From the NCBI GenBank assembly GCA_902576765.1, contig CACGWH010000005.1, positions 1 through 64,000 of the forward strand: DNA of 64,000 nucleotides. The letters are read 5' to 3'. Shown here one piece after another: positions 2,060-18,648 of the stretch (positions within the stretch are counted from its first letter, which is position 1; each line of letters starts with the position of its first letter). A program made the position numbers and the translations under genes. The notes beneath the pieces are model-generated. The model was not told the DNA's origin, did no database searches, and saw only the letters and a list, made by a program, of their open reading frames with translations. The stretch comes from an uncultured Pelagibacteraceae bacterium. Its GTDB lineage: Bacteria; Pseudomonadota; Alphaproteobacteria; Pelagibacterales; Pelagibacteraceae.

Positions 2060-2377
2060 TTAATTTGGATCGCCTCTTATATCCGTATTAAGTTCTTGAT
2101 ATATGAGTACTGAGATGGTTCTTAAGTTGTCAATTACTCTTTCATAGTCCCATTCTAGATAAACATCATTACAATTTAATTCTCTATAAACATAATACTT
2201 TGCATTTCCTAATGAAGGATCAATATTTTCTGTAATAACATTTAACTGCTGGGTTTTCTTTTCTAACGCAAAGTTATACTTACAGACATTTGAAGTGGCC
2301 CAGTAAAGTATTGAACTAATTAATATAGCAAAAAAAATCATTACTTTAGGAACACTCATCATTTTATTTTCCGTCAA
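2060..2377 (-). CDS. Small hypothetical protein with one N-terminal TM helix
   Basis: 105 aa ORF overlapping the end of the GAF-PP2C gene; hydrophobic segment VMIFFAILISSILYWA. Confidence 0.55.
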   Translation of the reverse strand: MTENKMMSVPKVMIFFAILISSILYWATSNVCKYNFALEKKTQQLNVITENIDPSLGNAKYYVYRELNCNDVYLEWDYERVIDNLRTISVLIYQELNTDIRGDPN

Positions 2378-3644
2378 TTACAACTATTGTCAAATCATCT
2401 TTTTGAATTTTTCCAGACTTTACAATGTCCTCGATGATAACTTTCAACCTATTGTTATTAGGTGTGGATTGGTATTTCTTAATATAATTTTGGAAACCTT
2501 CAGCACCTAACATCTCTCCATCTGGATCTTTAATTTCTGTGACACCATCAGTAAAAATGTACATTGAGCTTTCAGAAAAAGATATTGAACTTTCTTTGTA
2601 GGTAATATTTGGCATGATACCTAATGGCGGACCTGCTTCTGTATGATTTGAAAATTTTCCATCTTTTGAATAAATCAATGGAGGTTCATGTCCAGCATTT
2701 GAAATTAATAATTCTTTTTTATTACTATCATAAATTCCAACCAACATAGTCACAAACATACCTCTAGCTGCAGTTTCACAAATTTCTTTATTTAATAAAT
2801 TTAACAAGTCAGATGCTGAGAACATTGTTTTACTTAGACATCGATAAAGACTTGAGGCTTTTGACATCAACAATGATGACTTAATTCCTTTTCCAGACAC
2901 ATCTGCAACACCAAATCCATATTTGCCATCTCCTAAGTCAGAAAAGTTATAAAAATCTCCCGAGACTACTTTTGCAGGAATATTTATCCCAGCTATTGGA
3001 AAAGGGTCTTCTTTATTTTTAGATAATAAAGTTTTTTGGATCTCTCCAACAATTTCTATTTCCTTCTGCATTCTGTTTTTATCAACAAGCTCTTTAGCCA
3101 TTCGAGCATTTCTAATTGCAAGCGCCGCTGGTGTAGCTAGTGTTTCTAAAAGTTTTCTATCACTCTCTTCAAAGAGCTTATTAGCTGTTTTTTTATTTAA
3201 ACAATGAAGAACACCAATGCATTCATTGGCAGCAATAAGAGGTGCGCATAATACAGAGTATGTTGTAAAATTTGTTTTGTTATCTAAATCAAAATAAAAT
3301 TCTGCAATTTCTCTTACATCTTTTCTTACATCTCCAACTCGAATACATTTTTTTTGTAAAACTGCTTTACCCATCACTCCTTGAGTTAAAGGAATTTCAT
3401 AATCTTCCAAGTATGCTTGGTGTTTTGATGCAATGCATTGGAAAACTTGTTTTTTTTCTTCTATTAAAAAAACATTGGCTGCTTGTGCATTAATTCTTTT
3501 TATAATGACATCAAGCGAATTTTGTAGTGTCTCACTTAGATCAAGAGAAGTAGCAAACTCTTGACTTAGTTTAGTAATAATTTGAAAATCTTCTATTCTC
3601 GAGTCTTCTTTGGCTATTTCGGGTTTTTTTGATTTAAAAAACAT
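2364..3644 (-). CDS. GAF domain / PP2C (SpoIIE/RsbU-type) serine phosphatase
   Basis: GAF-like N-terminus; C-terminal 'VVSGDFYNFSDLGDGKYGFGVADVSGKGIKSSLLM', 'ISNAGHEPPLIYS' and 'YIFTDGVTEIKD' are SpoIIE/PP2C motifs. Confidence 0.88.
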   Translation of the reverse strand: MFFKSKKPEIAKEDSRIEDFQIITKLSQEFATSLDLSETLQNSLDVIIKRINAQAANVFLIEEKKQVFQCIASKHQAYLEDYEIPLTQGVMGKAVLQKKCIRVGDVRKDVREIAEFYFDLDNKTNFTTYSVLCAPLIAANECIGVLHCLNKKTANKLFEESDRKLLETLATPAALAIRNARMAKELVDKNRMQKEIEIVGEIQKTLLSKNKEDPFPIAGINIPAKVVSGDFYNFSDLGDGKYGFGVADVSGKGIKSSLLMSKASSLYRCLSKTMFSASDLLNLLNKEICETAARGMFVTMLVGIYDSNKKELLISNAGHEPPLIYSKDGKFSNHTEAGPPLGIMPNITYKESSISFSESSMYIFTDGVTEIKDPDGEMLGAEGFQNYIKKYQSTPNNNRLKVIIEDIVKSGKIQKDDLTIVVIDGK

Positions 3645-3807: not shown

Positions 3808-4572
3808 GTGTTTTATACTCTTGCTTTTATACTTGGAAGTATCTGGGGTAGCTTTTGCAATGTCTGTATTTATCGTCTACCATTGGAGCAAAATGTAATG
3901 AAAGGGAGATCTTTCTGCCCTTCATGCAAAGAACAAATAAGATGGTTTGATAATATCCCTTTTTTTTCTTTTCTATTCTTAAAAGGAAAATGTAGAAAAT
4001 GTAATATTAAAATAAGTATACAATATTTTATAGTAGAATTAATTTCAGCATTAAGTTTTCTTTTAATATTTTACATGTATGGAATTTCGATTACTACATT
4101 ATTACTAATAATCTTAAGTATTTTTTTTATCATAATATTTTTTATTGACTTAAAGCATTATATCATTCCAAATGAATTAACATTTCCTTTAATGTTAATT
4201 GGTTTTGTTAAATCTTTTGATCCAAATTTAAATCAATCTTTATTTCCAAATTATATAAATTCTTTAATTGGAGGATTGTTTGGTTATGCAATTATTTGGT
4301 TAATCATTTTTTTTTATAAAACGTTAAGAAATAAAGAGGGTATGGGACTTGGTGATGCAAAGTTAATTGCTGTTGTTGGTTTTTGGTTTGGCTGGTTTAG
4401 CATACCTTTTACAATTTTTATTTCCTCAGTTGTTGCTTTAGTTTATTCTATTCCGTCATTAATGAATAAAAGCAGAGATTTGTCTACACAAATTCCTTTC
4501 GGGCCTTTTATAATTATTGGCTGTTTAATTTATGTAACATTTGCAAACCAAATAAAAACTCTTTTTCTATAA
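3808..4572 (+). CDS. pilD: Prepilin peptidase (A24 leader peptidase / N-methyltransferase)
   Basis: GTG start; CPSC...CRKC zinc motif, 'FFIDLKHYIIPNELTFPLMLIG' and 'GMGLGDAKLIAVVGFWFGW' aspartyl motifs. Confidence 0.93.
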   Translation: MFYTLAFILGSIWGSFCNVCIYRLPLEQNVMKGRSFCPSCKEQIRWFDNIPFFSFLFLKGKCRKCNIKISIQYFIVELISALSFLLIFYMYGISITTLLLIILSIFFIIIFFIDLKHYIIPNELTFPLMLIGFVKSFDPNLNQSLFPNYINSLIGGLFGYAIIWLIIFFYKTLRNKEGMGLGDAKLIAVVGFWFGWFSIPFTIFISSVVALVYSIPSLMNKSRDLSTQIPFGPFIIIGCLIYVTFANQIKTLFL

Positions 4573-4776: not shown

Positions 4777-7700
4777 TTAGAAACCAGATTCTCTCCAGTT
4801 ACTTTTGTCTATGGTAACCTCTCCAGCGGCAGCTAAAACTGAATAGAGTGTTTCAGCATCTTCTTTAGGTCCTGCAACGTTTGCGAATAATTTATCTCCA
4901 AAGATTACAAGCTCTGACAAAATACCTTCTCTTACAAATTGGCAAGCTTTTCCATTTGCAGCACTACCTCTGGATAAAAGGTGAGAGTTATTTGATCCGC
5001 ATTCATCATCTGCAACACAAATAAATGCATTACCAATGTTGCATGGATTGGCTCCTTGAGGAGGTTCGTATATTGGAAAGTATACTTGGCCTTTAAATAA
5101 AGTAGGTGCAGCTGATAATTTTCTAAAACTATTATTGCTATTTTCATTTGGACCTTTACCATCCGGTGTATCTAAATGAACTACCCATGCTTGCTGCCCG
5201 CTTGTAGGTCCATCTTCACAACTTATTTTACCCGTAGTATCTTTACAGACAACCGCATTATCAATACTTGCTGCATTATTAGCACCCTTGTGTGCTTGAG
5301 CTAAAAATGTGTCCTCAGATTCTCTTGGGACGTGCGCACCATTTAAATGGTCAAAATACGGATAATCTGGATCTTTAACACCATACAAAATATTATCCAT
5401 AAATCTAGAACCGCCACCTATATCATTAAAGTTTCCTGTACCACCAAATAACCAGAAGTCTCTTGTTGTTTGTCCAATTCCTGCATCCATTGAAAAATAG
5501 CTATATCTTTTATTAATTGTGTTAGCATCCAATCTAAATAAAGTAGTTTGATCAAAAAGTTCTGCTTCATTTTTTGTAGAACTTGTTAAATTTAATTTTG
5601 TGATTTTTCCTTCAAGATCATTAAAATAAACCATTGCGCCTCGCCAAGGAATATTAAATGCTGTATCTGGAGTTATAACGACTGCTGAAGCAGGTAAAGA
5701 ATTTCCAATGTCGCTACCGTTAGGAGTTTGCTCACCAGCCGCTGAAGTTGGAACTGTATCTACAATCGTAATCGGACCTCCATTGGTTGTAGCTCCAAAA
5801 ATAGTTCCAGGTTCAATACCTTCTTGATCATCTCTATCTAAATTAACTAGAAATACTGCTGAACCAGCACACAAATTTGTGGCACCCATACCAGCTCCCA
5901 TCACTGCAACATATCTGTCTTTGCTTGGATTATTTCTATAAGCAATCGTTTCTGATGGAATTCTAAATATTCTTGGAGCTGACCATGTTTCTCCTAATTG
6001 GCTATAATCATATTGCACTGGTATATCAGTAGCTGCAGTACATGATGTTGCGACTGTAAACTGATTGGTCAGTGAAGTTTCAAGAGGACTACCCCCAGCA
6101 TTATAAGTTTTCTCAGTAGGAAACGTTATTACTAAATTGTCATTTTCATATTTTGCACTTGTAAAATCTATTGTTTGTAAAGTTCCATCAACTCTTTCAG
6201 TTACTTTTAATGATGACTTGGGTACAGTTCCATCAGCACTTGCTTGAGGTTTTAAATCAGAAAATCTAAATTCTGTACCTTTGAAGCACGAAGCTGTTCC
6301 TGCTGCATCTGAATGAAATAGACCAGTGGTCGTCATTACATCTGTATCATTAAGTTGACAGACTGCTATAGCATCTTGATTAGTGCAATTTTGTATTACA
6401 TCAGGGTCATCTGCGCTATCACAGTAAGAGGAATGATCTGGGTCTAGAGAGTCATCACCTCCATCTGCTGTAAAAGCTGTGTCCAAATTTTCACCAGCTT
6501 TAATTGCCTCTAGTGAGTCTTGAATACTGACAGAGCCTGATGAGTAAGGGTATGTTGTAATTGTACCTTCGTGGTCAGCCATATAAACAGTACTGTTAAT
6601 CGCGTCATTATAGACACTAAACATATGTATAGGTCCCAAATTATCTTTTAAAATTGGATTGGTAACATCTAAAACAGAAAATCCAGCACCACCTCTTCCA
6701 TATGGAACAAATAAAATAGTATGCCAACTTTTTTGATCTTCTAGTTCTCCCTGTGCATTAATTCCTTTAATTAAAACATCATGTACTACTGGTGATCCAT
6801 CAACACCAAAAATTGCATTAGTTCCACCTTTTTTACTATCAATTTTTCCACTAAGGTCAGCATTCATTAATGAAGGAAGCAATCCAGCAATGAATGGTGG
6901 AATAAAGCCCCACTCCTCTGCACCAGTTTCAGCATTAATAGCATGAAGCACACCACTATTTGCACCTGCATAGATTACATTTCTTCTTGAGGCATGTTTT
7001 TGCATAAAACTTTGATAGTTGTTTGTTGCTCTATAATATGCTTCTTCATTAGCTCCAGTAAAATCTATACTTGCATCAGGTGGGCCTACTTCTATCAATT
7101 GTGAGTGATAAATATCCCCAAGAACATGGCTTCTTACTTCTGTAACATCACAATCTCCGTCATAATCAAAGTAATCCGTTCCTTTCATAAAATTTATCAA
7201 CCCTAAAAGATCATCAGACGTTCCGTTGTCACCCACATATCCATTTGATGCACAGTAGGAAGTTGCATTATGGTAGTCAGCAATATTAAAACCAAATAAT
7301 TCAAATAATTCAGTAATATCATCTGAGTTGTCTGTGTTGAAGTTGTCCCAATTTCCAATGTAAGGCGATCCAGGTATCGCACTCCATAAATTTCTTGTAT
7401 CAGCCGCATCAGCAGGTGTAGCTTGTTTTCTAATTTCTACCGATGCATCCCAGTTCCCGGGTGAATCCATTTCATGAATAACAGTTCCGTCTGCGTTTAA
7501 AGTTTTTCTCAAAATTGTTCCTTGCCATTCTCCGAATTGTTCATAAGCAAACTGTGCTTGATATAAAGAACCCCCTTCTTGGACAGTAGCTGTGATCGAA
7601 GGAGCGGTAAATGATAATCGTTCAGCAAGTATCTGTCTGATTTTTGCTGTCAATTGAGTTTTTAAAGACTCTGGTGTGTCAGCAACTATTGTTGGTTCAC

Positions 7701-9552
7701 AATCAGGGCTGTTTGCGTCTCCCCCTGGACAAGATCCAGCTACAGCCATTGCATCAAAAATTTCCATTCCTCTAGCATTAATACCTCCGCCATAAGCAAC
7801 AAATAAAGTTTTAACTGGATTTGTTTTATCTCTTAAAGCCGCAATTCTAGGAATAGCAGAAGCATTGTTTCTCATCATTCCATCACCAATTACAATAACA
7901 TAATTTAATTGACACTCTGAGTTCTCATCGTAAGCCTCAAAATCATTATTAAAATAATCAAGAGCCATAATAGAGTATGCGTTCGCGTCAGTACCCCAAG
8001 CTAAACCCTGAGGAATTAGATTGTCTAGAATTCTTGTGTACCCTTCAGCACTTATCCCTACATTCAAACATGAGTCTCTGTTACATTGTACCGATTGTCC
8101 GTCTGGATGATCACCATTCCATCCACCATAGTAAGTGCAACCATCATTAAAATGACAGAATCTTCCACCTCTAGGTCCTGTTCTTCGTCCACCTGTTTCT
8201 CCAGCATTCCAGTGTCCATAACCAAAGTGAGCACCACTGGTCAAAGTTGTGTCACTTATAATTGCACTCATTGCTTTTTTAACACCAACCCATCTTGATA
8301 CGACTCCACCACCCATTTGTAGAAGCCAAGAAGTATCTCTATTTTCTGCAGTAAATAAATTTTCATTGAAAACATCTATGGTTCCTCTTGTTGTTCCAAC
8401 TAAAATTCTATCCGATGTTACATGAATACCAATTGGTTGGTTAAATCTAACGTTGTTAGCTGAAAGAGCTCCAGAAGCTTCAATATTTGCTCCATTATTT
8501 CGTCTTCCAGTCCCTGCTCTTGCTAATATTGTATAAGTTGTATTTGTATCAAGCCGAACTTTTTGAATTACATGTCTTCTTGTTGAAGTTATATATAAAA
8601 TATCATCATCATCAGGTGAAACATCGATACCTATTACGTCTGCTAATTGTGTATCTAAATTTCCACGATTTACTCTAGTATAAAGTCTGGTGGCCGCATT
8701 GTTAGTAATTCGATATGCGTCGCCACTTTTTTCCATGGTATACCCGAATATATGAACTCGGCCTAAATATAACATTGAGGCATCACTGTTAACTGCAATT
8801 CTCCAAGTAAGTCTACCCATACGTGCAAATGAATTATTGGCATTCCCTCCAAATACCTGCACACCACTGCTGTTACCTGTATTTAAATTAAATGATACAA
8901 AGGCAGATTGATTTCCAGCTCTACCAGTAACAAATAGAAAATGTTCACCATCAATTAATTGAAGATCCATTCCTTGAATTGTAAGTCCAAGCTCTAAGTA
9001 CATCAGACAATCCTGTCCGTCCTCAGAATATCCAACAATTGCTTGATCATCTCTTAGTTGACGTTCATTAGACCTGAAAAAAATTATGTCTCGATTAGTA
9101 AATACTCCATTGTCAGTACTTAATTCTGTTGCAAATCTAATATCCGCAGTATGTCGAGCAACTGTATTTTTAGTTATTTCACCGTTATAACCCATTCCTG
9201 TAGATGACAGGGTACATGTGTCTGATGCATTACCAGTGTATCTTCCAACATTGTCATTAAATTCCCTGTTTCTAGATCCATCAGAATTAAATTTTACTAT
9301 TCCATTATTTCTAAACTGCGCTGCAAGAATATCTCCATTTGAATCGTAAATTGCGTTAGGAACATATTGAATGGCATCTCTATTACTCATTCTTCGTCTC
9401 ATACTTGCTGAACTATCAATTAATATCAAAATGTTAGCAGGAACATCTCCCTCTCCTGAACCAGGAGGAACTGGTTTTGCATCAACTTTAGATACAAAAG
9501 CAATTTCTAGTAAAATGAATAAGAATAGAAAATATTTTGCAAAATGTTTCAT
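4777..9552 (-). CDS. pilY1: PilY1-like type IV pilus tip/adhesin protein (VWA plus C-terminal beta-propeller)
   Basis: Signal peptide, 'NILILIDSSASM' MIDAS, 'HVLGDIYHSQLIEVGPP', 'RRNVIYAGANSGVLHAINAETGAEEWGFIPPFI' and 'DYDGDCDVTE' (Ca-binding-like loop) are typical of PilY1/PilC. Confidence 0.88.
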   Translation of the reverse strand: MKHFAKYFLFLFILLEIAFVSKVDAKPVPPGSGEGDVPANILILIDSSASMRRRMSNRDAIQYVPNAIYDSNGDILAAQFRNNGIVKFNSDGSRNREFNDNVGRYTGNASDTCTLSSTGMGYNGEITKNTVARHTADIRFATELSTDNGVFTNRDIIFFRSNERQLRDDQAIVGYSEDGQDCLMYLELGLTIQGMDLQLIDGEHFLFVTGRAGNQSAFVSFNLNTGNSSGVQVFGGNANNSFARMGRLTWRIAVNSDASMLYLGRVHIFGYTMEKSGDAYRITNNAATRLYTRVNRGNLDTQLADVIGIDVSPDDDDILYITSTRRHVIQKVRLDTNTTYTILARAGTGRRNNGANIEASGALSANNVRFNQPIGIHVTSDRILVGTTRGTIDVFNENLFTAENRDTSWLLQMGGGVVSRWVGVKKAMSAIISDTTLTSGAHFGYGHWNAGETGGRRTGPRGGRFCHFNDGCTYYGGWNGDHPDGQSVQCNRDSCLNVGISAEGYTRILDNLIPQGLAWGTDANAYSIMALDYFNNDFEAYDENSECQLNYVIVIGDGMMRNNASAIPRIAALRDKTNPVKTLFVAYGGGINARGMEIFDAMAVAGSCPGGDANSPDCEPTIVADTPESLKTQLTAKIRQILAERLSFTAPSITATVQEGGSLYQAQFAYEQFGEWQGTILRKTLNADGTVIHEMDSPGNWDASVEIRKQATPADAADTRNLWSAIPGSPYIGNWDNFNTDNSDDITELFELFGFNIADYHNATSYCASNGYVGDNGTSDDLLGLINFMKGTDYFDYDGDCDVTEVRSHVLGDIYHSQLIEVGPPDASIDFTGANEEAYYRATNNYQSFMQKHASRRNVIYAGANSGVLHAINAETGAEEWGFIPPFIAGLLPSLMNADLSGKIDSKKGGTNAIFGVDGSPVVHDVLIKGINAQGELEDQKSWHTILFVPYGRGGAGFSVLDVTNPILKDNLGPIHMFSVYNDAINSTVYMADHEGTITTYPYSSGSVSIQDSLEAIKAGENLDTAFTADGGDDSLDPDHSSYCDSADDPDVIQNCTNQDAIAVCQLNDTDVMTTTGLFHSDAAGTASCFKGTEFRFSDLKPQASADGTVPKSSLKVTERVDGTLQTIDFTSAKYENDNLVITFPTEKTYNAGGSPLETSLTNQFTVATSCTAATDIPVQYDYSQLGETWSAPRIFRIPSETIAYRNNPSKDRYVAVMGAGMGATNLCAGSAVFLVNLDRDDQEGIEPGTIFGATTNGGPITIVDTVPTSAAGEQTPNGSDIGNSLPASAVVITPDTAFNIPWRGAMVYFNDLEGKITKLNLTSSTKNEAELFDQTTLFRLDANTINKRYSYFSMDAGIGQTTRDFWLFGGTGNFNDIGGGSRFMDNILYGVKDPDYPYFDHLNGAHVPRESEDTFLAQAHKGANNAASIDNAVVCKDTTGKISCEDGPTSGQQAWVVHLDTPDGKGPNENSNNSFRKLSAAPTLFKGQVYFPIYEPPQGANPCNIGNAFICVADDECGSNNSHLLSRGSAANGKACQFVREGILSELVIFGDKLFANVAGPKEDAETLYSVLAAAGEVTIDKSNWRESGF

Positions 9553-9555
9553 AAT

Positions 9556-10068
9556 TTAATTTACCGCTAAAATAACCTCTTCTCCTATTGTAAAATCTAT
9601 TAATTCCTCTGTCGAAATATCAAGAGTTTCTATCGCGCCGTTAAAATCTTTATTTTTTGCATAAAGTATTTTGTCTTGACCAACACTAATATCTTTATAG
9701 CCAAACCAATTTTTATTCTCAATTTCCTTGCTTAAATTTCCATAGGTAACTTTGGCAAATTTATATATTTCATTTTCATTTATTGCAGCATCCATAGTTT
9801 CTAATCGGATCCCAACAATTTTTGATTGATAAACAAAGACATGGATGTAAGAATTTTCTAAGTTACTTTTTGGACAATAATCTGCGGCATAACCCACGTA
9901 TTGAACAGTATTCCATTCATCAAAATTTTCTTCTGAGTATCCATCAATAATAAAAAAAGTTTTTTTTGCGCTTGAAACCTTAGTGCCTGTTAATTTAAGT
10001 GCATCACAAGCTAAAGAGTTGTTGGTAAATAAAATAAAAACAAAAATTATAATAAAATTTTTATTCAT
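9556..10068 (-). CDS. Hypothetical secreted protein in minor-pilin operon
   Basis: Track ORF starts at 10167, but a signal peptide begins at MNKNFIIIFVFILFTNNSLAC (10068), which also removes the overlap with the upstream gene. Confidence 0.65.
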   Translation of the reverse strand: MNKNFIIIFVFILFTNNSLACDALKLTGTKVSSAKKTFFIIDGYSEENFDEWNTVQYVGYAADYCPKSNLENSYIHVFVYQSKIVGIRLETMDAAINENEIYKFAKVTYGNLSKEIENKNWFGYKDISVGQDKILYAKNKDFNGAIETLDISTEELIDFTIGEEVILAVN

Positions 10069-10138
10069 AAAAATATTATAAAATTTTGAGTTAATCTTTA
10101 AAAGATTCTTTTTATATAAATTACTTATTTTGAGCATA

Positions 10139-10984
10139 TTAATTTGGCAAAACAACCACAGATTCAAGGGCTACTAGGATATCTGGTGTCTTTCCATCAA
10201 TTTCAGCCCAACCTTCAGCAGTAAAACCCGAGCCAATTTCACTGCTACTTTTTGAGTGGCTTTTATCCATCATATAGCCACAGCCATAAATCTTATACGC
10301 GGTACCTGTTGATTGGGTATTAGTAGTAGTTTTTTTTAAACTAGCTCCTGCACCACGAAAACTTGCACTCCCAATATTAACGATAAAATACTCATACCTG
10401 AATCTATCCATATGGGCCTTTTCTTTTGTAATGGTGTCTGCATCAGTTAAATTATCAAGAGAAGAATCCGTAAAAACTTGTTGTATTAATGATCCAAAGT
10501 TTAAATTTACTGCATGGATCGAAACTGCCAATGTATTTGAATGATTAGTGCCATCTATTTCGACATTACTCTTTACAATATTTCTATAACTATTAAAGCA
10601 AGGAGTTTTTGTAACCACAGTTCTATTAGCAGGCAAATCTCTTTGATCAACATATCTTGACATTCCTTGAACTGCAGTAGTTTTCATTTGATTAACCATC
10701 AACTCCCAACTTGATTTTTCATCTTCAGTCATTCCTGTAGTGTCTTCAGACTCAACTGTTGCTGTTGAAATCCAAGGACCCATATTTTGGTTGATTAAAT
10801 ATTTTTCTCCTTCAAGCAAAGCAGTCTCAGCTACATAAAAAGTTTGCTGGTATTCATCACTTGAATTGTTACTTTGGTGGTCAGTTGATGAAATAACAAT
10901 AAGCGCACCTCCCATCAAAGACATTACAAGTAAAAGTAAAAGTGACAAAACTAATGCAAATCCTTTTTCATTTTTACGTTTCAT
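10139..10984 (-). CDS. pilX: PilX-like minor pilin/assembly protein
   Basis: MKRKNEKG^FALVLSLLLLLVMSLMGGALIVIS leader-type N-terminus; lies between pilW-like and pilY1-like genes. Confidence 0.75.
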   Translation of the reverse strand: MKRKNEKGFALVLSLLLLLVMSLMGGALIVISSTDHQSNNSSDEYQQTFYVAETALLEGEKYLINQNMGPWISTATVESEDTTGMTEDEKSSWELMVNQMKTTAVQGMSRYVDQRDLPANRTVVTKTPCFNSYRNIVKSNVEIDGTNHSNTLAVSIHAVNLNFGSLIQQVFTDSSLDNLTDADTITKEKAHMDRFRYEYFIVNIGSASFRGAGASLKKTTTNTQSTGTAYKIYGCGYMMDKSHSKSSSEIGSGFTAEGWAEIDGKTPDILVALESVVVLPN

Positions 10985-10986
10985 AA

Positions 10987-11910
10987 TTATATCCCGCCCA
11001 GTATATTTCTCGTATGGATAGTAACAACAACTGAGTCTCTCAATTTAGTATCATCGAAATTTTGTCCTCTATCTCCCAAACCTTTTACGTAACGAGGTTT
11101 GTCTGCTGTCGATTTAAATTTATAGAAATTACTTTTTGATCTAAAAGTAATTATTAGATCGACTGCTCTAATTTTATAAAGATTGTCTCTGGCTGCAATA
11201 TTTTCACCCGGACGAGGCAATGGATTAAGTACTCTGCCTTCAGAATCCAGTGGAACAAATTCCATATCCACTATGTGATCACGAATTTTTTGTCCAACAT
11301 AACATTCTGTACAATCATCTACCCAAGTACCACTGTCAGAGTCTATTGGTTGAGACCAGCTTCTAAGAGATTTATATGCAGCATACCTTTGTCCATCGCC
11401 GTCAGTTATTGGTGCAGCATAATAGGTAATTTTATATCTCTTATATGGTTGGGTTGTATCATTTTGATTAAAATCATCATAAACTATATGTATCCTGTCA
11501 CAACATTTACTACCTTCGTCCGGGTGACCTTGAATTTCTATTTTATTAGTATTTGAACCTTCCGATGGTCCTAAAGCACTATCACCTTTTTCTATAATTA
11601 TTGGATCATGACTTTCTGCAATAGTAGTATTACCACCTACAAACTGTAAATAACTTCTGTTAGGAAAACCAAGTGTGTTATTTCCTAAAATATATCTAAA
11701 ACCAGCCATTCTAATATCTCTCATCATCATTTCCACAATGTCTCTACCAGATCGACTAATTTTTGCCCTCTCCGTTACTTGGCTGTAGCTATTATTAACA
11801 ACTGAATAAGTAGTATAAATTGCTCCCATCATTATCGATGAAATAACAACTCCAATAAGCATCTCTAAAAGAGTTAAACCTGCAATATTTTTAAATCTAT
11901 TTTTTTTCAT
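10987..11910 (-). CDS. pilW: PilW-like minor pilin
   Basis: N-methylation motif AGLTLLEMLIGVVISSIMMGAIYTTY; RDIRMAGF motif typical of PilW. Confidence 0.8.
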   Translation of the reverse strand: MKKNRFKNIAGLTLLEMLIGVVISSIMMGAIYTTYSVVNNSYSQVTERAKISRSGRDIVEMMMRDIRMAGFRYILGNNTLGFPNRSYLQFVGGNTTIAESHDPIIIEKGDSALGPSEGSNTNKIEIQGHPDEGSKCCDRIHIVYDDFNQNDTTQPYKRYKITYYAAPITDGDGQRYAAYKSLRSWSQPIDSDSGTWVDDCTECYVGQKIRDHIVDMEFVPLDSEGRVLNPLPRPGENIAARDNLYKIRAVDLIITFRSKSNFYKFKSTADKPRYVKGLGDRGQNFDDTKLRDSVVVTIHTRNILGGI

Positions 11911-12617
11911 TTTCTTGTGTTGTAATCAGCTTGAAAGTATAAAAACTTTCTTTTTTTTCCATTATTTAAATTAAATTGAATTCTTCCAATATACATTCCG
12001 TTATCATTAATTCGGGCGTCAGTATAATTTTGACAGGTATCATCCCATCTACAAATTTTATACATTTTTATTTTTTTGATATCTCTATCACCTCTACATT
12101 TTAAATAACGATCCTCACCTAATATTGCCATCCATTTCTGCTCTTTATTTTGTGGACCATCTGAAAATTGTGAGTCGTAAATACTAGTTGGCGCACTTGG
12201 TGAATTTCCTTGCTCTTGTGAATTTTCTTGTTGTTGTGTTGAGCCAGTATCAGCGGTAGCCATATTTGAAGACCCACATGCTCCCGTAAAAAATGCCGTA
12301 TTATCTTTAGCTAAATGATCCGTAAATTTTCTTGCATTATCATTTTCTTCACCATTAACTCTTACAGTCCCATCAATGTCTATAACAACTTTATCTTGGA
12401 ATGGATTTACATTGAAAACAGATTCTCTATGACCAATAATATCCTCAGCAATCATGCTAACCAAATAATTTGCTTTAGTTCTTTCTCCAGATGTATCAAT
12501 TGATTGTACTGAATAATTTACCATTTGAAGTATAGCAATAAAACCAATGCCAACAATTGCTGTTGAAATAAGTCCTTCTAAAATTGTTAAACCTAAAATA
12601 TTTTTTATTTTTTTCAT
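11907..12617 (-). CDS. pilV: PilV-like minor pilin
   Basis: MKKIKNILGLTILEGLISTAIVGIGFIAILQMV; position in operon. Confidence 0.7.
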   Translation of the reverse strand: MKKIKNILGLTILEGLISTAIVGIGFIAILQMVNYSVQSIDTSGERTKANYLVSMIAEDIIGHRESVFNVNPFQDKVVIDIDGTVRVNGEENDNARKFTDHLAKDNTAFFTGACGSSNMATADTGSTQQQENSQEQGNSPSAPTSIYDSQFSDGPQNKEQKWMAILGEDRYLKCRGDRDIKKIKMYKICRWDDTCQNYTDARINDNGMYIGRIQFNLNNGKKRKFLYFQADYNTRK

Positions 12618-12618
12618 A

Positions 12619-13335
12619 TTATTGCATAACCCATTCTAACTTTTTACTGCTCCATTTGTCTAAAGTTATTTCTCCAAATCTAGTCCAATCTAAAGAATAC
12701 ATCAAATTATCTTCTGAGTCAGTAGGTTCACCAGTCGCGCTAAGTTGACATTCATTGTCACCATCTCTTTTACATATTATTAAACTTTCATCGACTGCAG
12801 TATCATTGCCTGCACCACTGAGTAAATCTCCAGCTCCACTAAACCACCGAGCATTTTTTGCAAAGCATACTGCAGAATCAGATTTTAGATTAGTAGTAAT
12901 ATCATTGAATGTTACTGACTGAACTTCGATATCATTTGCCGTTGAACCATCAACATCCCAATAATCTGTTGTAGTCATATCACATCTTGAAGATATAGTC
13001 GTGTTCCAAGCACTATCACCATCATTAATTTTTTGAGCAAGAGTATCCGTTTTCATACCTCTAGTTGTAAGAGTAACATTATCATCATTTACACCAATGA
13101 GAACTTGCACAAATGCAAATTGACCTCTTTGGACCTGAGCATTAATACCCTCAAATATTTTTTTTGCTTTAAGTGCATCAGTTCTTACCTCTCTACTTTG
13201 TTTCCAGCTTGAGAACTTTGGATATGCTGCAGCAGATATGACGCCGATGATTGCTAGAACAACGATCAACTCTAGTATATTAAAACCTTTAATGTTCTTT
13301 TCCTGCACCTGCATCAATTTTTCCTGCTTTAACAA
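12619..13335 (-). CDS. Type IV pilin-like protein (prepilin N-terminus)
   Basis: 'IKG^FNILELIVVLAIIGVISAAAYPKF'; start may be the internal Met (MQVQEKNIKG). Confidence 0.8.
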   Translation of the reverse strand: MLKQEKLMQVQEKNIKGFNILELIVVLAIIGVISAAAYPKFSSWKQSREVRTDALKAKKIFEGINAQVQRGQFAFVQVLIGVNDDNVTLTTRGMKTDTLAQKINDGDSAWNTTISSRCDMTTTDYWDVDGSTANDIEVQSVTFNDITTNLKSDSAVCFAKNARWFSGAGDLLSGAGNDTAVDESLIICKRDGDNECQLSATGEPTDSEDNLMYSLDWTRFGEITLDKWSSKKLEWVMQ

Positions 13336-14302
13336 GTTCTTCTAATGATTTCTGCATCGTTATCATTCCTTCTTTGACAGCAGTTTGCATGATGCTTGGG
13401 ATTTGATGAATTTTCGACTCTCTTATTAAGTTTTGAATTGGGGCTGTACACTTCATCACCTCAAAAGCACCACAACGACCCTGGCCATCTTTTGTTTTTA
13501 AAAGTCTTTGAGTAACAACCATCTTTAACGACGTTGAAATTTGTGCTCGAATTTGAGCTTGTTGCTCTGGTGGAAACACGTCGATAATCCTGTTGATAGT
13601 ATTTGGTGCACCACTTGTGTGCAATGTTCCAAAAACCAGGTGACCTGTTTCTGCAGCAGTTAAAGCTAATGAAACTGTTTCTAAATCTCTCATCTCACCA
13701 ACTAGAATTACATCTGGATCTTCTCGAAGTGCCGCTTTTAATGCACTTGCAAAAGTTTTGGTTTGTTTACCTACTTCTCTATGAGAGACAATGCTTTTTA
13801 CATCTTTATGAATAAATTCAACTGGGTCTTCAACAGTAATAATGTTTGCAGTTCTGGTTTTATTAATTTCATTTATGATGGCTGCAAGGGTTGTTGATTT
13901 ACCAGATCCTGTTGGACCTGTAACAAGAACAAGACCTTTATGCATATCAATAATATCATATAATACCTGTGGTAAATCGAACTGACCCATTTCAGGAATA
14001 ACACTTTCTACTCTTCTTAGTACTGCAGCAGGACCTGTGATAGTTTTATAAAAGTTAGCTCTAAATCTTAATCCACTAAGAGTAACAGAAGAGTCTAACT
14101 CATGTGTTTCTGTAAACCTTTTCATTTCAACTTCATTACAATTAGTTGATAATAAATCTTGAAGATCTTGAGCTTTAACAATTACTTCTGGGATTTTATG
14201 AATTTCTCCTGTTTGTCTGAATGCTAATGGCCACCCGCTTCTAATATGGAAATCTGAAATTTTCTTATTATTTTTAGCTAGCTCTTCTAATTTTTCAAAC
14301 AT
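13289..14302 (-). CDS. pilT: Twitching motility ATPase PilT
   Basis: Walker A GPTGSGKSTT, 'AALREDPDVILVGEMRDLETVSLALTAAETGHLVFGTLHT'. Confidence 0.95.
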   Translation of the reverse strand: MFEKLEELAKNNKKISDFHIRSGWPLAFRQTGEIHKIPEVIVKAQDLQDLLSTNCNEVEMKRFTETHELDSSVTLSGLRFRANFYKTITGPAAVLRRVESVIPEMGQFDLPQVLYDIIDMHKGLVLVTGPTGSGKSTTLAAIINEINKTRTANIITVEDPVEFIHKDVKSIVSHREVGKQTKTFASALKAALREDPDVILVGEMRDLETVSLALTAAETGHLVFGTLHTSGAPNTINRIIDVFPPEQQAQIRAQISTSLKMVVTQRLLKTKDGQGRCGAFEVMKCTAPIQNLIRESKIHQIPSIMQTAVKEGMITMQKSLEELVKAGKIDAGAGKEH

Positions 14303-14465: not shown

Positions 14466-16256
14466 ATGAATAGAATAAAGATTATTCTAATTAATCTGTT
14501 GTTGTTAACATATATTAGCATCTCATATGCTGCTGATGTAGATGAGGATACAACCTTCTCAACAACTGCAACAGCTCAACAAGTAGTTACTGAAAATGAT
14601 GTTGATATTATCATAACCAATAATGCTTCCATAACTAGAACTGGTCAAAAAGCAATTAAAAATACTGACGATGAAGTAACAGGTACTACCATTACAATAC
14701 ACTCTGGTTCATCTGTAACATCTACAGGTAATAATACTATTTCAACTGAGGGAGGTGAATTAACAATAACTAACTCGGGAACAATTCAAGCTTTAGGTGC
14801 TAGTGGTGCTAACTCAAAAGCAATTAATATTAGCAACTCTGATGGAGGAGTAACAATTACAAACAACAGCGGTGGAATAATCGCATCTCCTGGAAACACT
14901 ATTCTTGGAAATGCAGGCACTGGTGGAGATAACACAACAATTGAAAATAGTGGTCAAATAACATCAACCAATACTTCTTCTTCAAGTAGTGCAATAATTT
15001 ACAAGGACAATGATACTGGTAATACTATTACAAATAATGCAGGGGGAGAAATAACCAGTAAAGGTACTAAATCAACTATAATAGTTGGTGCAAGCTCTAC
15101 AATAACTAACAGTGGAACAATAAAAAATAATAAATCTGTTAGTAAAAATGCGATCCAACTTAAAGGAGATAACAATACAGTAACCTTAAAAGATGAGGGA
15201 ATAGTAGTAGGTATTATTAAAGCTGCAAATGGTACAACAGGAAATACATTAAAAATTAATCACGGAGTTGGAAAAAGTTATTATTATAATACAGGTGGTG
15301 ATTTTACTTTACAGGACTTAGACGGTAATCAAATTGTTAATGGATCTGCAGGTTCTGTTGGTCAAGGTGGGAGTGAAATTCTGGATGATGTACTGGGAAG
15401 AAAATCTTTAAACTTAAGACAATCGTTTGCAAGATACAAAAGCACAAAAGAAGATTTAGGTAAGCCACAAAGTTGGGGTGAAATTAATTTTTCTACATTT
15501 AAAAAAAAACAAAATAGTCAAAATTTATCTCTTGGTTTAAACTCTGCAGATTTATCAATTAATTTAATGTATCCTAATCAAGATAAAGATTTTATCTTAT
15601 CTTTAGGTACTGGAAGTCAAAAATTCACTAAAGATCATAGCATTAATAGATATTCTGTTCATTCAGGATTTCTTTTTAAAGATAACCCAATTTTAAATAT
15701 GTTCGGTGATGAAAGTTTTGTTTTAGGTGGAATTAATTTACAAACTAGTGAAAGAGAAATTTTAACTAACACAAGATCCTCTGGTAAATTAAGTATTGGA
15801 GACAATTATGAAACTTATGATCTTCTTGCTGGTACAAAGATAAATAATGATTTTTTAATTCCCAATATTGGGGCTACAGTTGGTTTATCTTATACACCTA
15901 GTCATAATGAAAGTGATTATTATAGTTGGGATAATAAAGGTGTTAGTAATTTATCTGTATACCTTGATGATAGCTATAAATTAAATTTAGGAAATAATTA
16001 TCAAATTAATTTAGGATGGATTGTCGATGTAAGAAAAATGGTTTTAGGTAAAGATCAAGATTATGAAATTAATGGCACAGCTGCAACTTTTTCACAAGAT
16101 GCTGATACAACACAAGAAGTAACTCTAGCAACCAACCTTGGTTTTGATAAAAAAATAACTGATGACCATTTTTTTAAGTTTAATTTAGATAGCACTATAA
16201 GCACACAAGAACTGACAAGTTTTACCGGAAATTTCGCATACAAATTTGCCTTTTGA
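14466..16256 (+). CDS. Autotransporter-like outer membrane protein with Asn/Thr-rich beta-helix-like passenger
   Basis: Signal peptide; repeated 'TITNSGTI/TITNNAGGEI' passenger; barrel-like C-terminus ending in Phe (FTGNFAYKFAF). Confidence 0.8.
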   Translation: MNRIKIILINLLLLTYISISYAADVDEDTTFSTTATAQQVVTENDVDIIITNNASITRTGQKAIKNTDDEVTGTTITIHSGSSVTSTGNNTISTEGGELTITNSGTIQALGASGANSKAINISNSDGGVTITNNSGGIIASPGNTILGNAGTGGDNTTIENSGQITSTNTSSSSSAIIYKDNDTGNTITNNAGGEITSKGTKSTIIVGASSTITNSGTIKNNKSVSKNAIQLKGDNNTVTLKDEGIVVGIIKAANGTTGNTLKINHGVGKSYYYNTGGDFTLQDLDGNQIVNGSAGSVGQGGSEILDDVLGRKSLNLRQSFARYKSTKEDLGKPQSWGEINFSTFKKKQNSQNLSLGLNSADLSINLMYPNQDKDFILSLGTGSQKFTKDHSINRYSVHSGFLFKDNPILNMFGDESFVLGGINLQTSEREILTNTRSSGKLSIGDNYETYDLLAGTKINNDFLIPNIGATVGLSYTPSHNESDYYSWDNKGVSNLSVYLDDSYKLNLGNNYQINLGWIVDVRKMVLGKDQDYEINGTAATFSQDADTTQEVTLATNLGFDKKITDDHFFKFNLDSTISTQELTSFTGNFAYKFAF

Positions 16257-16320
16257 CCAATAACCAATTTTGGGTACATTTGAGGATGAATTAGAAAAAG
16301 ATTCATGTAAAAAAACTCAA

Positions 16321-18648
16321 ATGTCTTTGATAAAAAAAATACTATTAATATTTTTTCTATTATTTCCTATATCCAAATCTTTTGGAGATATATATCGAGT
16401 AACTGAAGTCACTTTTAATCAAAAGCAAACAATTAACACTCAAGGTGATGAAGATGCAGGTACTCTATCTGATAATACTGATTTTGGACTTGCAGCTGGT
16501 ATAGAGTTCAACGCAGATGGAACTAAAATGTTTGTAAGTTTTGCCCAAACTGATCCTGATAGTAAAGATCTTACTCGAGTTATAAATACCTACGATTTAA
16601 GTACCCCATACGATGTTTCAACAGAAACTTTCGCTGGTGATAGTGAAAGGTGTGAATTTGAAGTTGATAGTGGAGATCACAGTCATCAAATATATGACTT
16701 AGAATTAAGTAGTGATGGAATGAAAATACTTTTAGTTACTAGAGTTAGACACTCTAGTGCAGATCACGATAAGGCTTATGTATTAGATTTAACTACTGCT
16801 TATGATATCTCTACTTGTAGTAGAAGTTCAGCAACTACAGATATCGACAGTGATACTTTTACAAGTGGAAGTAATGCTGGGGAACATGACGGTACAACTG
16901 AACATATGCTTCAAGGTATAGAAGTTAATGAAGATGGGAGTAAGGTATTTTTACTTTTTAATAATCGAAATTGTAATAGTGGCGAGGCTGGTGCAAGATT
17001 GTATGAGTATACACTTTCAACCCCATATGACTTAACTACGATGTCTCTTGTACTTAATGCAGGTATAAGATTTGATTGTCTTGAAACAGGTGGTGTAAAA
17101 AATGGTGCTGCAATGAGATTTAGCCCAAACGGGAAAAGACTGTTTATCACAAATCATGATACACAACAGAGAGGTGTTACTCAAATTTCACTAGCAATTG
17201 CTTATGATACATCTTCATTTAAAATGGATGGCAGAGTGGTTCTTGGTGGAGCATTTGATAATATGTCTGATGGTAATGATCAACCAAGAGGAATTGCATT
17301 TAATTCAAATGGCTTAAAAATGTATTTAACCAGTGATCGAACCCAAGGCAGTAAAGATGAGATATACGAATACGATTTGAATTGTCCATTTAATATAATT
17401 GAGGGAAATTGCTCTTTTACAACTAATAATTCTGATCGGACTGCAATAATTGAAGCTCAAATAGAAATTGCTAAAAAAACTATAGATCATTCAACTGATA
17501 CAGCTCTTAATAGACTTAAGTGGATTAGAAGAAATAAAGACAAACAGAATTTAACCAACTTAAATTTGAATATTAATTTTACTAATCAAAAATTAGCTTC
17601 ATTAACTGAAGTTGTTAGAACTTCTGCTGCTAAGAATAAATCAAAAGATAAAGATAAAGAAGAAGACCTTTTTTATTGGAGTGAAGGAAGTTTAGCAGTT
17701 GGAAGAATTGGCGATACCAGTATTTCATCTACAAAAAAAATTGGAACTGATGCTATTACTTTTGGTGTAGATAAATTTGTTAAAAATAATGAAATAAAAG
17801 GTCTAGCATTTAGAGTAGGGAGAAATAATGTTGATGTCGGAAGTGCTGGAAGTAATTTAGACACAGACACTTATAATATTACTTATTATGCTACCTCTCC
17901 TATAAAAGATGATACAAAATTTGTAGATACAATAGTTGGATTTGGAAAAATTCGGTCAAAATATTTAACTATTGCCAATAAAATTAGTCATACAGCAAAT
18001 AGAACTGGTCAACAGATTTATTTCACCCGTAAAATTAAAGATGAAATAAAAAAAAATAATTTTACATTAATTCCATCAGGACAGTTTGATTTTGGTCAAA
18101 CAATATTAAATGGTTATTCAGAAACAGGATTAACAGGAATAACTTTTGAAAAACAACATGTAAGGACGAGAAATTTAAGGGGCGCAATTGCTATAGTTGA
18201 AGATCTATCAAATGAAAATATTTCTTTTAAAAGACATGGAAAACTTGAATACTCTGCTGACCTTTCACGATCCTCAAATTTAGAATATAGATATAATTCT
18301 GGTAGCGATACAATTCATACAACTTTACACTCAGGTTCAATTCACAATTTAAAAGGTGAGATTGGTATTGATATAATTCTACCTAATAACTTTAGTGTAT
18401 TCTTTATTTATGAACGTAATCAAGCCCTAAACGTTGGACACACCGATAAAATTCATATTGCTATTGGATATTTACCTAACAAAGAGACAAATTATGTATT
18501 TTCAATAGATGGGTCTGATGAATTTAAATCAAATTATGTATTAAGTAAAAATATAAATGATTACTTAATTGATTTTAAATTAACAAATGATCTGATGACC
18601 CCGACAGACTATGATGAGGCCTCTTTTAATCTTATTCGAAAGTTTTAA
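16321..18648 (+). CDS. Outer-membrane autotransporter-like protein with beta-propeller-like repeats
   Basis: Track ORF starts at 16270; MSLIKKILLIFFLLFPISKSFGD at 16321 gives a signal peptide. Five repeats like 'GIEFNADGTKMFVSF...YDLSTPYDVST'; barrel-like C-terminus ending SFNLIRKF. Confidence 0.75.
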   Translation: MSLIKKILLIFFLLFPISKSFGDIYRVTEVTFNQKQTINTQGDEDAGTLSDNTDFGLAAGIEFNADGTKMFVSFAQTDPDSKDLTRVINTYDLSTPYDVSTETFAGDSERCEFEVDSGDHSHQIYDLELSSDGMKILLVTRVRHSSADHDKAYVLDLTTAYDISTCSRSSATTDIDSDTFTSGSNAGEHDGTTEHMLQGIEVNEDGSKVFLLFNNRNCNSGEAGARLYEYTLSTPYDLTTMSLVLNAGIRFDCLETGGVKNGAAMRFSPNGKRLFITNHDTQQRGVTQISLAIAYDTSSFKMDGRVVLGGAFDNMSDGNDQPRGIAFNSNGLKMYLTSDRTQGSKDEIYEYDLNCPFNIIEGNCSFTTNNSDRTAIIEAQIEIAKKTIDHSTDTALNRLKWIRRNKDKQNLTNLNLNINFTNQKLASLTEVVRTSAAKNKSKDKDKEEDLFYWSEGSLAVGRIGDTSISSTKKIGTDAITFGVDKFVKNNEIKGLAFRVGRNNVDVGSAGSNLDTDTYNITYYATSPIKDDTKFVDTIVGFGKIRSKYLTIANKISHTANRTGQQIYFTRKIKDEIKKNNFTLIPSGQFDFGQTILNGYSETGLTGITFEKQHVRTRNLRGAIAIVEDLSNENISFKRHGKLEYSADLSRSSNLEYRYNSGSDTIHTTLHSGSIHNLKGEIGIDIILPNNFSVFFIYERNQALNVGHTDKIHIAIGYLPNKETNYVFSIDGSDEFKSNYVLSKNINDYLIDFKLTNDLMTPTDYDEASFNLIRKF
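16498..17400 (+). repeat. In-gene repeats encoding five beta-propeller-like blades
   Basis: Protein repeats GIEFNADGTKMFVSF, LELSSDGMKILLVT, GIEVNEDGSKVFLLF, AMRFSPNGKRLFIT, GIAFNSNGLKMYLTS, several followed by YDLSTPYD-like strands. Confidence 0.7.

Follow-up and report, generated by a model that had tools for sequence, protein, structure and literature searches.

The PilY1-like protein encoded in the window (the whole 64,000-nucleotide stretch of DNA analysed) is predicted to carry, inside a VWA domain with an intact MIDAS site, a second beta-propeller of the NHL type that is distinct from the C-terminal propeller. This conclusion is supported by structure models and by structural and profile searches. 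The open reading frame (positions 4777-9552, reverse strand, 1591 amino acids) is a PilY1 of a Pelagibacteraceae (SAR11) cell and ends a minor-pilin operon. The window is contig 5 of a genome of 829 kb that is 65% complete, and among its named relatives the closest are single-cell genomes of SAR11 that carry the annotation Pelagibacteraceae.

In a search of the whole genome, the protein matched PF05567 with 36.2 bits (cut-off 28.1). Sub-region searches of its C-terminal part gave 34.6 and 36.1 bits; the C-terminal propeller region lies at 4780-7122 (reverse strand), with a match of 36 bits at 6658-7122. A full-length hmmscan of the same protein missed PF05567, so the protein is assigned to the PilY1 family on the basis of synteny and of the searches with the genome and with the sub-regions. 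Pfam and NCBIfam were little informative when used on the window protein alone. The C-terminal region of one relative (L014) had a single PDB match by phmmer, to the Pseudomonas aeruginosa PilY1 structure 3HX6 (E 4.5e-15). An acidic loop, DYDGDCDVTE, at the start of the C-terminal propeller (7138-7167, reverse strand) resembles a calcium site and is putatively one. At the other end of the protein, a basic start, a hydrophobic stretch and an A-K-P boundary predict a signal peptide from residue 1 to about residue 25 (9478-9552, reverse strand). From what is known of the family, the protein would be a type IVa pilus adhesin located at the pilus tip.

The original prediction proposed that the VWA domain was split by an insertion of about 360 residues, and this was confirmed, with the insertion at residues 52-418 (8299-9399), essentially where it had been placed. 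Strand 1 and the MIDAS loop DxSxS (D46, S48 and S50) occupy residues 40-51 (9400-9435, reverse strand; NILILIDSSASM), and helix 1 and strand 2 follow only after the insert, at residues 419-451 (8200-8298, reverse strand; WVGVKKAMSAIISDTTLTSGAHFGYGHW). Alignment and the AF2 model place the rest of the domain, with a Cys-rich loop (Cys 466, 472, 490 and 495), at 7600-8199 on the same strand, and the remaining MIDAS residues were located by alignment as T521 (7990-7992) and D557 (7882-7884), both also on the reverse strand. All five MIDAS residues were invariant in 18 of 18 and then in 50 of 50 aligned relatives, and the helix 1/strand 2 segment was the best-conserved stretch beyond strand 1. From family knowledge, the VWA domain is inferred to bind a divalent metal through this site.

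An AF2 model of residues 25-651, built with 50 sequences, had a mean pLDDT of 89.4 and a pTM of 0.75. In segment numbering, its elements run from strand 1 (15-22) through beta strands (42-390) to helix 1 (396-409), strand 2 (417-424) and the remaining VWA elements, an order that matches the alternating Rossmann-type beta/alpha fold of a VWA domain. The delayed helix 1 and strand 2 that had been predicted behind the MIDAS strand were thus seen in the model. Nine of the 18 relatives had a Pfam VWA or VWA_2 match (E up to 1) that stayed under the curated cut-offs, and in one of them, L013, the VWA_2 match begins at the MIDAS strand. The element order, the invariant MIDAS and an insert length conserved in 108 sequences together argue that the split is not a chance arrangement.

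The insert between the MIDAS strand and the delayed helix 1 is 367 residues long. Modelled alone with AF2 it gave a pLDDT of 93.8 and a pTM of 0.92, and it is therefore predicted to be an independent domain. A Foldseek search of the insert against the PDB returned 510 matches (E up to 0.001). The 50 matches listed all appear to be beta-propellers and have NHL propellers on top; Thin's NHL domain ranked first, with a TM score of 0.65 by target length, and the NHL domains of TRIM71 and TRIM2 also ranked near the top. As the TM score to known NHL domains is moderate, the blade geometry of the insert is probably not canonical. Hand counts of six strand groups in the AF2 model and six repeats in the sequence suggest six blades. 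In both fold and repeat pattern the insert resembles the six-bladed NHL propellers of TRIM71, Thin and the PknD sensor. Those propellers form separate domains in other proteins and lie outside any VWA.

A profile of the relatives also retrieved NHL propellers from the PDB, using sequence only (E 4.3e-9). Pfam NHL was found in six of 18 relatives, mostly below curated cut-offs, and NHL and VWA matches occurred in the same relatives. The short-type SAR11 insert aligned with itself at an offset of one blade (E 5e-8). The window protein on its own gave only weak propeller matches, and the case for a propeller is therefore built on the relatives and the models. These agree on an extra propeller nested in the VWA and separate from the C-terminal one, as had been suggested, and the structural check put it between strand 1 and helix 1. 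An origin of the insert as a copy of the C-terminal propeller was not detectable (hhalign probability 0.7% and 12.6%).

The same loop was examined in 40 PilY1 loci from other Pseudomonadota, 11 of which had both landmarks measurable. Nine of these 11 had a gap of 106-359 aa between the MIDAS and helix 1, and two had 0-9 aa. The expectation that helix 1 follows strand 1 directly in PilY1 proteins thus did not hold; the delay is unusual for VWA domains generally, not for PilY1 proteins. In seven of the nine long-gap proteins the gap ends in N[FI]ANW[YF]xxYRxR. Like the SAR11 proteins, PilY1s with the motif LDDSGSM (for example L148, L156 and L166) have an insert in the same loop and then a delayed helix 1, which in them reads NFANWYxxYRxR, but their insert is of unrelated sequence and has no propeller match. 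Scanning this region of ten such PilY1s for propeller families gave no match. Profile comparison found no homology of the SAR11 insert with these ordinary PilY1 inserts (hhalign probability 0.3%), while the later part of the VWA aligns. Since the gaps in other PilY1s are filled with unrelated sequence, the loop appears to be a customary insertion site that a propeller has filled in the SAR11 lineage. What is special to SAR11 is that the loop insert is a propeller, not that an insert is present. Two PilY1s from other Pseudomonadota (L186 and L174) have helix 1 soon after strand 1 and a large, jelly-roll-like extra sequence further on, which marks another insertion point in the PilY1 VWA.

Within SAR11 the insert recurs at this loop in every PilY1 that could be measured (108 of 108, 297-389 aa), as the original prediction had proposed to check. 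Its length in these sequences is bimodal, either ~300 or about 355-389 aa. A further 21 SAR11 sequences fell outside the count, as the helix 1 landmark was unrecognised or the contig ended. The short-type profile matched 98 of the 297 genomes sampled from the order, covering two families and six genera. Outside SAR11, a search of 399 genomes across the phylum Pseudomonadota found no protein that covers both modules, and its matches were partial ones to either an NHL-like or a VWA-like part. A search of the class gave weak matches to NHL alone and a single match, at the end of a contig, to the VWA alone. Two apparent exceptions, L091 ('Nitrosomonadales') and L092 (an unspecified alphaproteobacterial MAG), are probably misbinned, as their neighbouring genes are SAR11-like. 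Viral or plasmid carriage was rejected because no relatives were found in the viral contigs and plasmids searched.

The pilY1 gene and a pilT-like gene co-occur in 19 of 61 genomes. One complete SAR11 genome of 1.34 Mb (G012) has pilT, pilB and pilQ and no recognisable PilY1. Some other SAR11 genomes (L242, L243, L244 and L245) have two or three PilY1 copies. In the multi-copy genomes one PilY1 lies in the minor-pilin operon and the others outside it, in tandem in L245, as if pilus tips were exchangeable.

Upstream of pilY1 in the window, on the same reverse strand, are genes for a PilT/PilU-type ATPase (13289-14302; PF00437, 3.2e-50), which co-occurs with pilY1 in relatives, and for minor pilins resembling FimT/FimU (12619-13335; N-methylation motif, below cut-off), PilV (11907-12617; assigned by position and a prepilin-like N-terminal sequence, without a Pfam match), PilW (10987-11910; PF07963, 9.8e-6) and PilX (10139-10984; PF14341, 3.7e-7). 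Homologues of PilX, PilW, PilV, FimT and PilT adjoin pilY1 in all 55 long SAR11 loci. Between pilX and pilY1 (9556-10167, reverse strand) is a gene for a hypothetical protein of 203 aa, syntenic in 52 of the 55 long loci and with no family match. The protein looks secreted and is a candidate for a new component of the tip complex or a PilY1 chaperone. The prepilin peptidase gene pilD is at 3808-4572 on the forward strand (PF01478, 3e-24; PF06750, 6e-33), and another contig of the same genome (C19) encodes pilins, PilB, PilC, the secretin PilQ, PilP, PilO and PilM/N.

Several other neighbours were recorded. An autotransporter of 792 aa (16270-18648, forward strand; PF03797, 5.5e-19) adjoins the pilus operon, and related genes are present in 17 of the 55 long loci. 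Its passenger resembles a WD40/PD40-type propeller and is possibly a second surface-displayed propeller. Beside pilT, a forward-strand gene (14466-16256) encodes a protein of 596 aa with T/S/N-rich repeats and a barrel-like C-terminus, without a Pfam match. Autotransporter adhesin genes have been reported beside SAR11 type IV pilus genes (PMC12636525), and this protein may be related to them. A GAF-SpoIIE phosphatase gene (2364-3644, reverse strand) lies beside pilD and pilY1, and in another locus a STAS-like and HATPase-like pair (L190:1764-2569, forward strand) lies beside pilins; together they look like pilus-tied partner-switching signalling.

The insert evolves faster than the domain that holds it. 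Mean column entropy over 50 sequences was 2.16 bits in the insert versus 1.33 in the VWA core, and among ten close relatives dN/dS was 0.19 for the insert versus 0.07 for the remaining VWA. No positive selection on the insert was found, and no pair among these relatives exceeded a dN/dS of 0.31. The insert thus keeps its fold and length, varies more freely in sequence and is subject to purifying selection. A recognition head that meets shifting demands would be expected to diverge faster and yet keep its length, and the dN/dS of the insert could also mean relaxed constraint only.

In this family, PilY1 occupies the tip of the pilus, where minor pilins carry it, and roles in adhesion and in the sensing of surfaces have been ascribed to its VWA (PMC11891296, PMC8806160). 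We lean, by a modest degree, towards the SAR11 protein being a PilY1-type tip adhesin with a propeller recognition head at the MIDAS face, where force or binding tunes the metal site or the signal to the pilus. The C-terminal propeller would attach to the tip complex formed by the minor pilins of the same operon, leaving the VWA and the nested propeller outermost on the tip. The insert begins immediately behind the DxSxSM metal loop, which should place the nested propeller at the MIDAS face or next to it. It may be the primary recognition head. Load on a bound ligand might then reach the VWA by way of strand 1 and helix 1, which adjoin the metal site, and binding and force might adjust either the affinity of the MIDAS or the signal that goes to the pilus.

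The main rival of a recognition head is a passive spacer or structural elaboration that stabilises or shields the MIDAS and binds nothing, with adhesion left to the VWA or the C-terminal domain. In other bacteria, PilY1s extend this loop with 106-359 aa of unrelated, non-propeller sequence, which is consistent with a spacer, as is the faster evolution of the insert relative to the VWA. However, a whole propeller fold of conserved length in more than 100 proteins exceeds the needs of a loop, and propellers are usually binding platforms, so we consider a spacer unlikely, if still a serious contender. Rather more doubtful is a role as a decoy or escape surface, in which an exposed, diversifying module at the tip would be under selection from phages that have the pilus as their receptor. 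That the insert diverges so strongly between close relatives would suit such a role, and extra PilY1 copies could be exchanged, but pairwise dN/dS gave no sign of positive selection and a literature search found no paper in which SAR11 pili are named as the receptor of a phage. Finally, the length of the separation alone might suggest that the N-terminal DSSAS is a false MIDAS and that the VWA begins after the propeller with nothing nested, but this is most improbable given the confident strand at residues 39-46 in the AF2 model, helix 1 and strand 2 after the insert, the joint invariance of the DxSxS, T and D residues, and the start of the VWA_2 match in L013. Of these readings, we think the most likely is a recognition head with an added tuning effect on the metal site. 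A stronger form of it, which we offer tentatively and hold to be the less probable, is that SAR11 tips act as an 'inside-out integrin', in which ligand tension on strand 1 and helix 1 switches the metal site and so makes a force-gated attachment or uptake pilus.

The PilY1 of P. aeruginosa, which has an N-terminal VWA with a MIDAS (reported as DxSxS..T..D, PMC8806160) and a C-terminal propeller (3HX6), shares with the SAR11 protein a homologous C-terminal propeller and the minor-pilin operon; unlike in SAR11, no propeller inside its VWA has been described. Integrin alpha subunits that contain an I domain likewise unite a propeller with a MIDAS-bearing VWA through insertion (PMC10659397). There the VWA is inside the propeller, whereas in the SAR11 PilY1 the propeller is inside the VWA, and the likeness is one of analogy only. 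PilB of Streptococcus sanguinis is a pilus-borne VWA adhesin with a MIDAS (PMC8179133); its VWA is fused to a pilin and, unlike that of SAR11 PilY1, is without a propeller. In a 2026 survey of PilY1 proteins, VWA and DUF4114 are the only N-terminal domains named (PMC13190605), and a literature search for a PilY1 with an NHL repeat found no paper. As far as we found, a propeller in the metal-binding corner of a PilY1 VWA therefore appears to be undescribed for the family. A catalogue of 68 PilC/PilY1 architectures also exists (PMC8179133), so priority is not certain.

The nesting is a clean case of a VWA accepting a whole domain beside its metal site. With it, the tip protein would be a two-headed gripping or sensing device. 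SAR11 are the most abundant cells in the ocean and dominate its surface. Surface adhesion is unreported for them (PMC12636525), though many encode a type IV pilus. What a pilus holds is expected to be determined by its tip protein, and with a two-module tip conserved across the order, the binding of the SAR11 pilus becomes testable with one recombinant domain. If the 'inside-out integrin' were true, an ultra-streamlined planktonic cell would possess a force-gated pilus for attachment or uptake.
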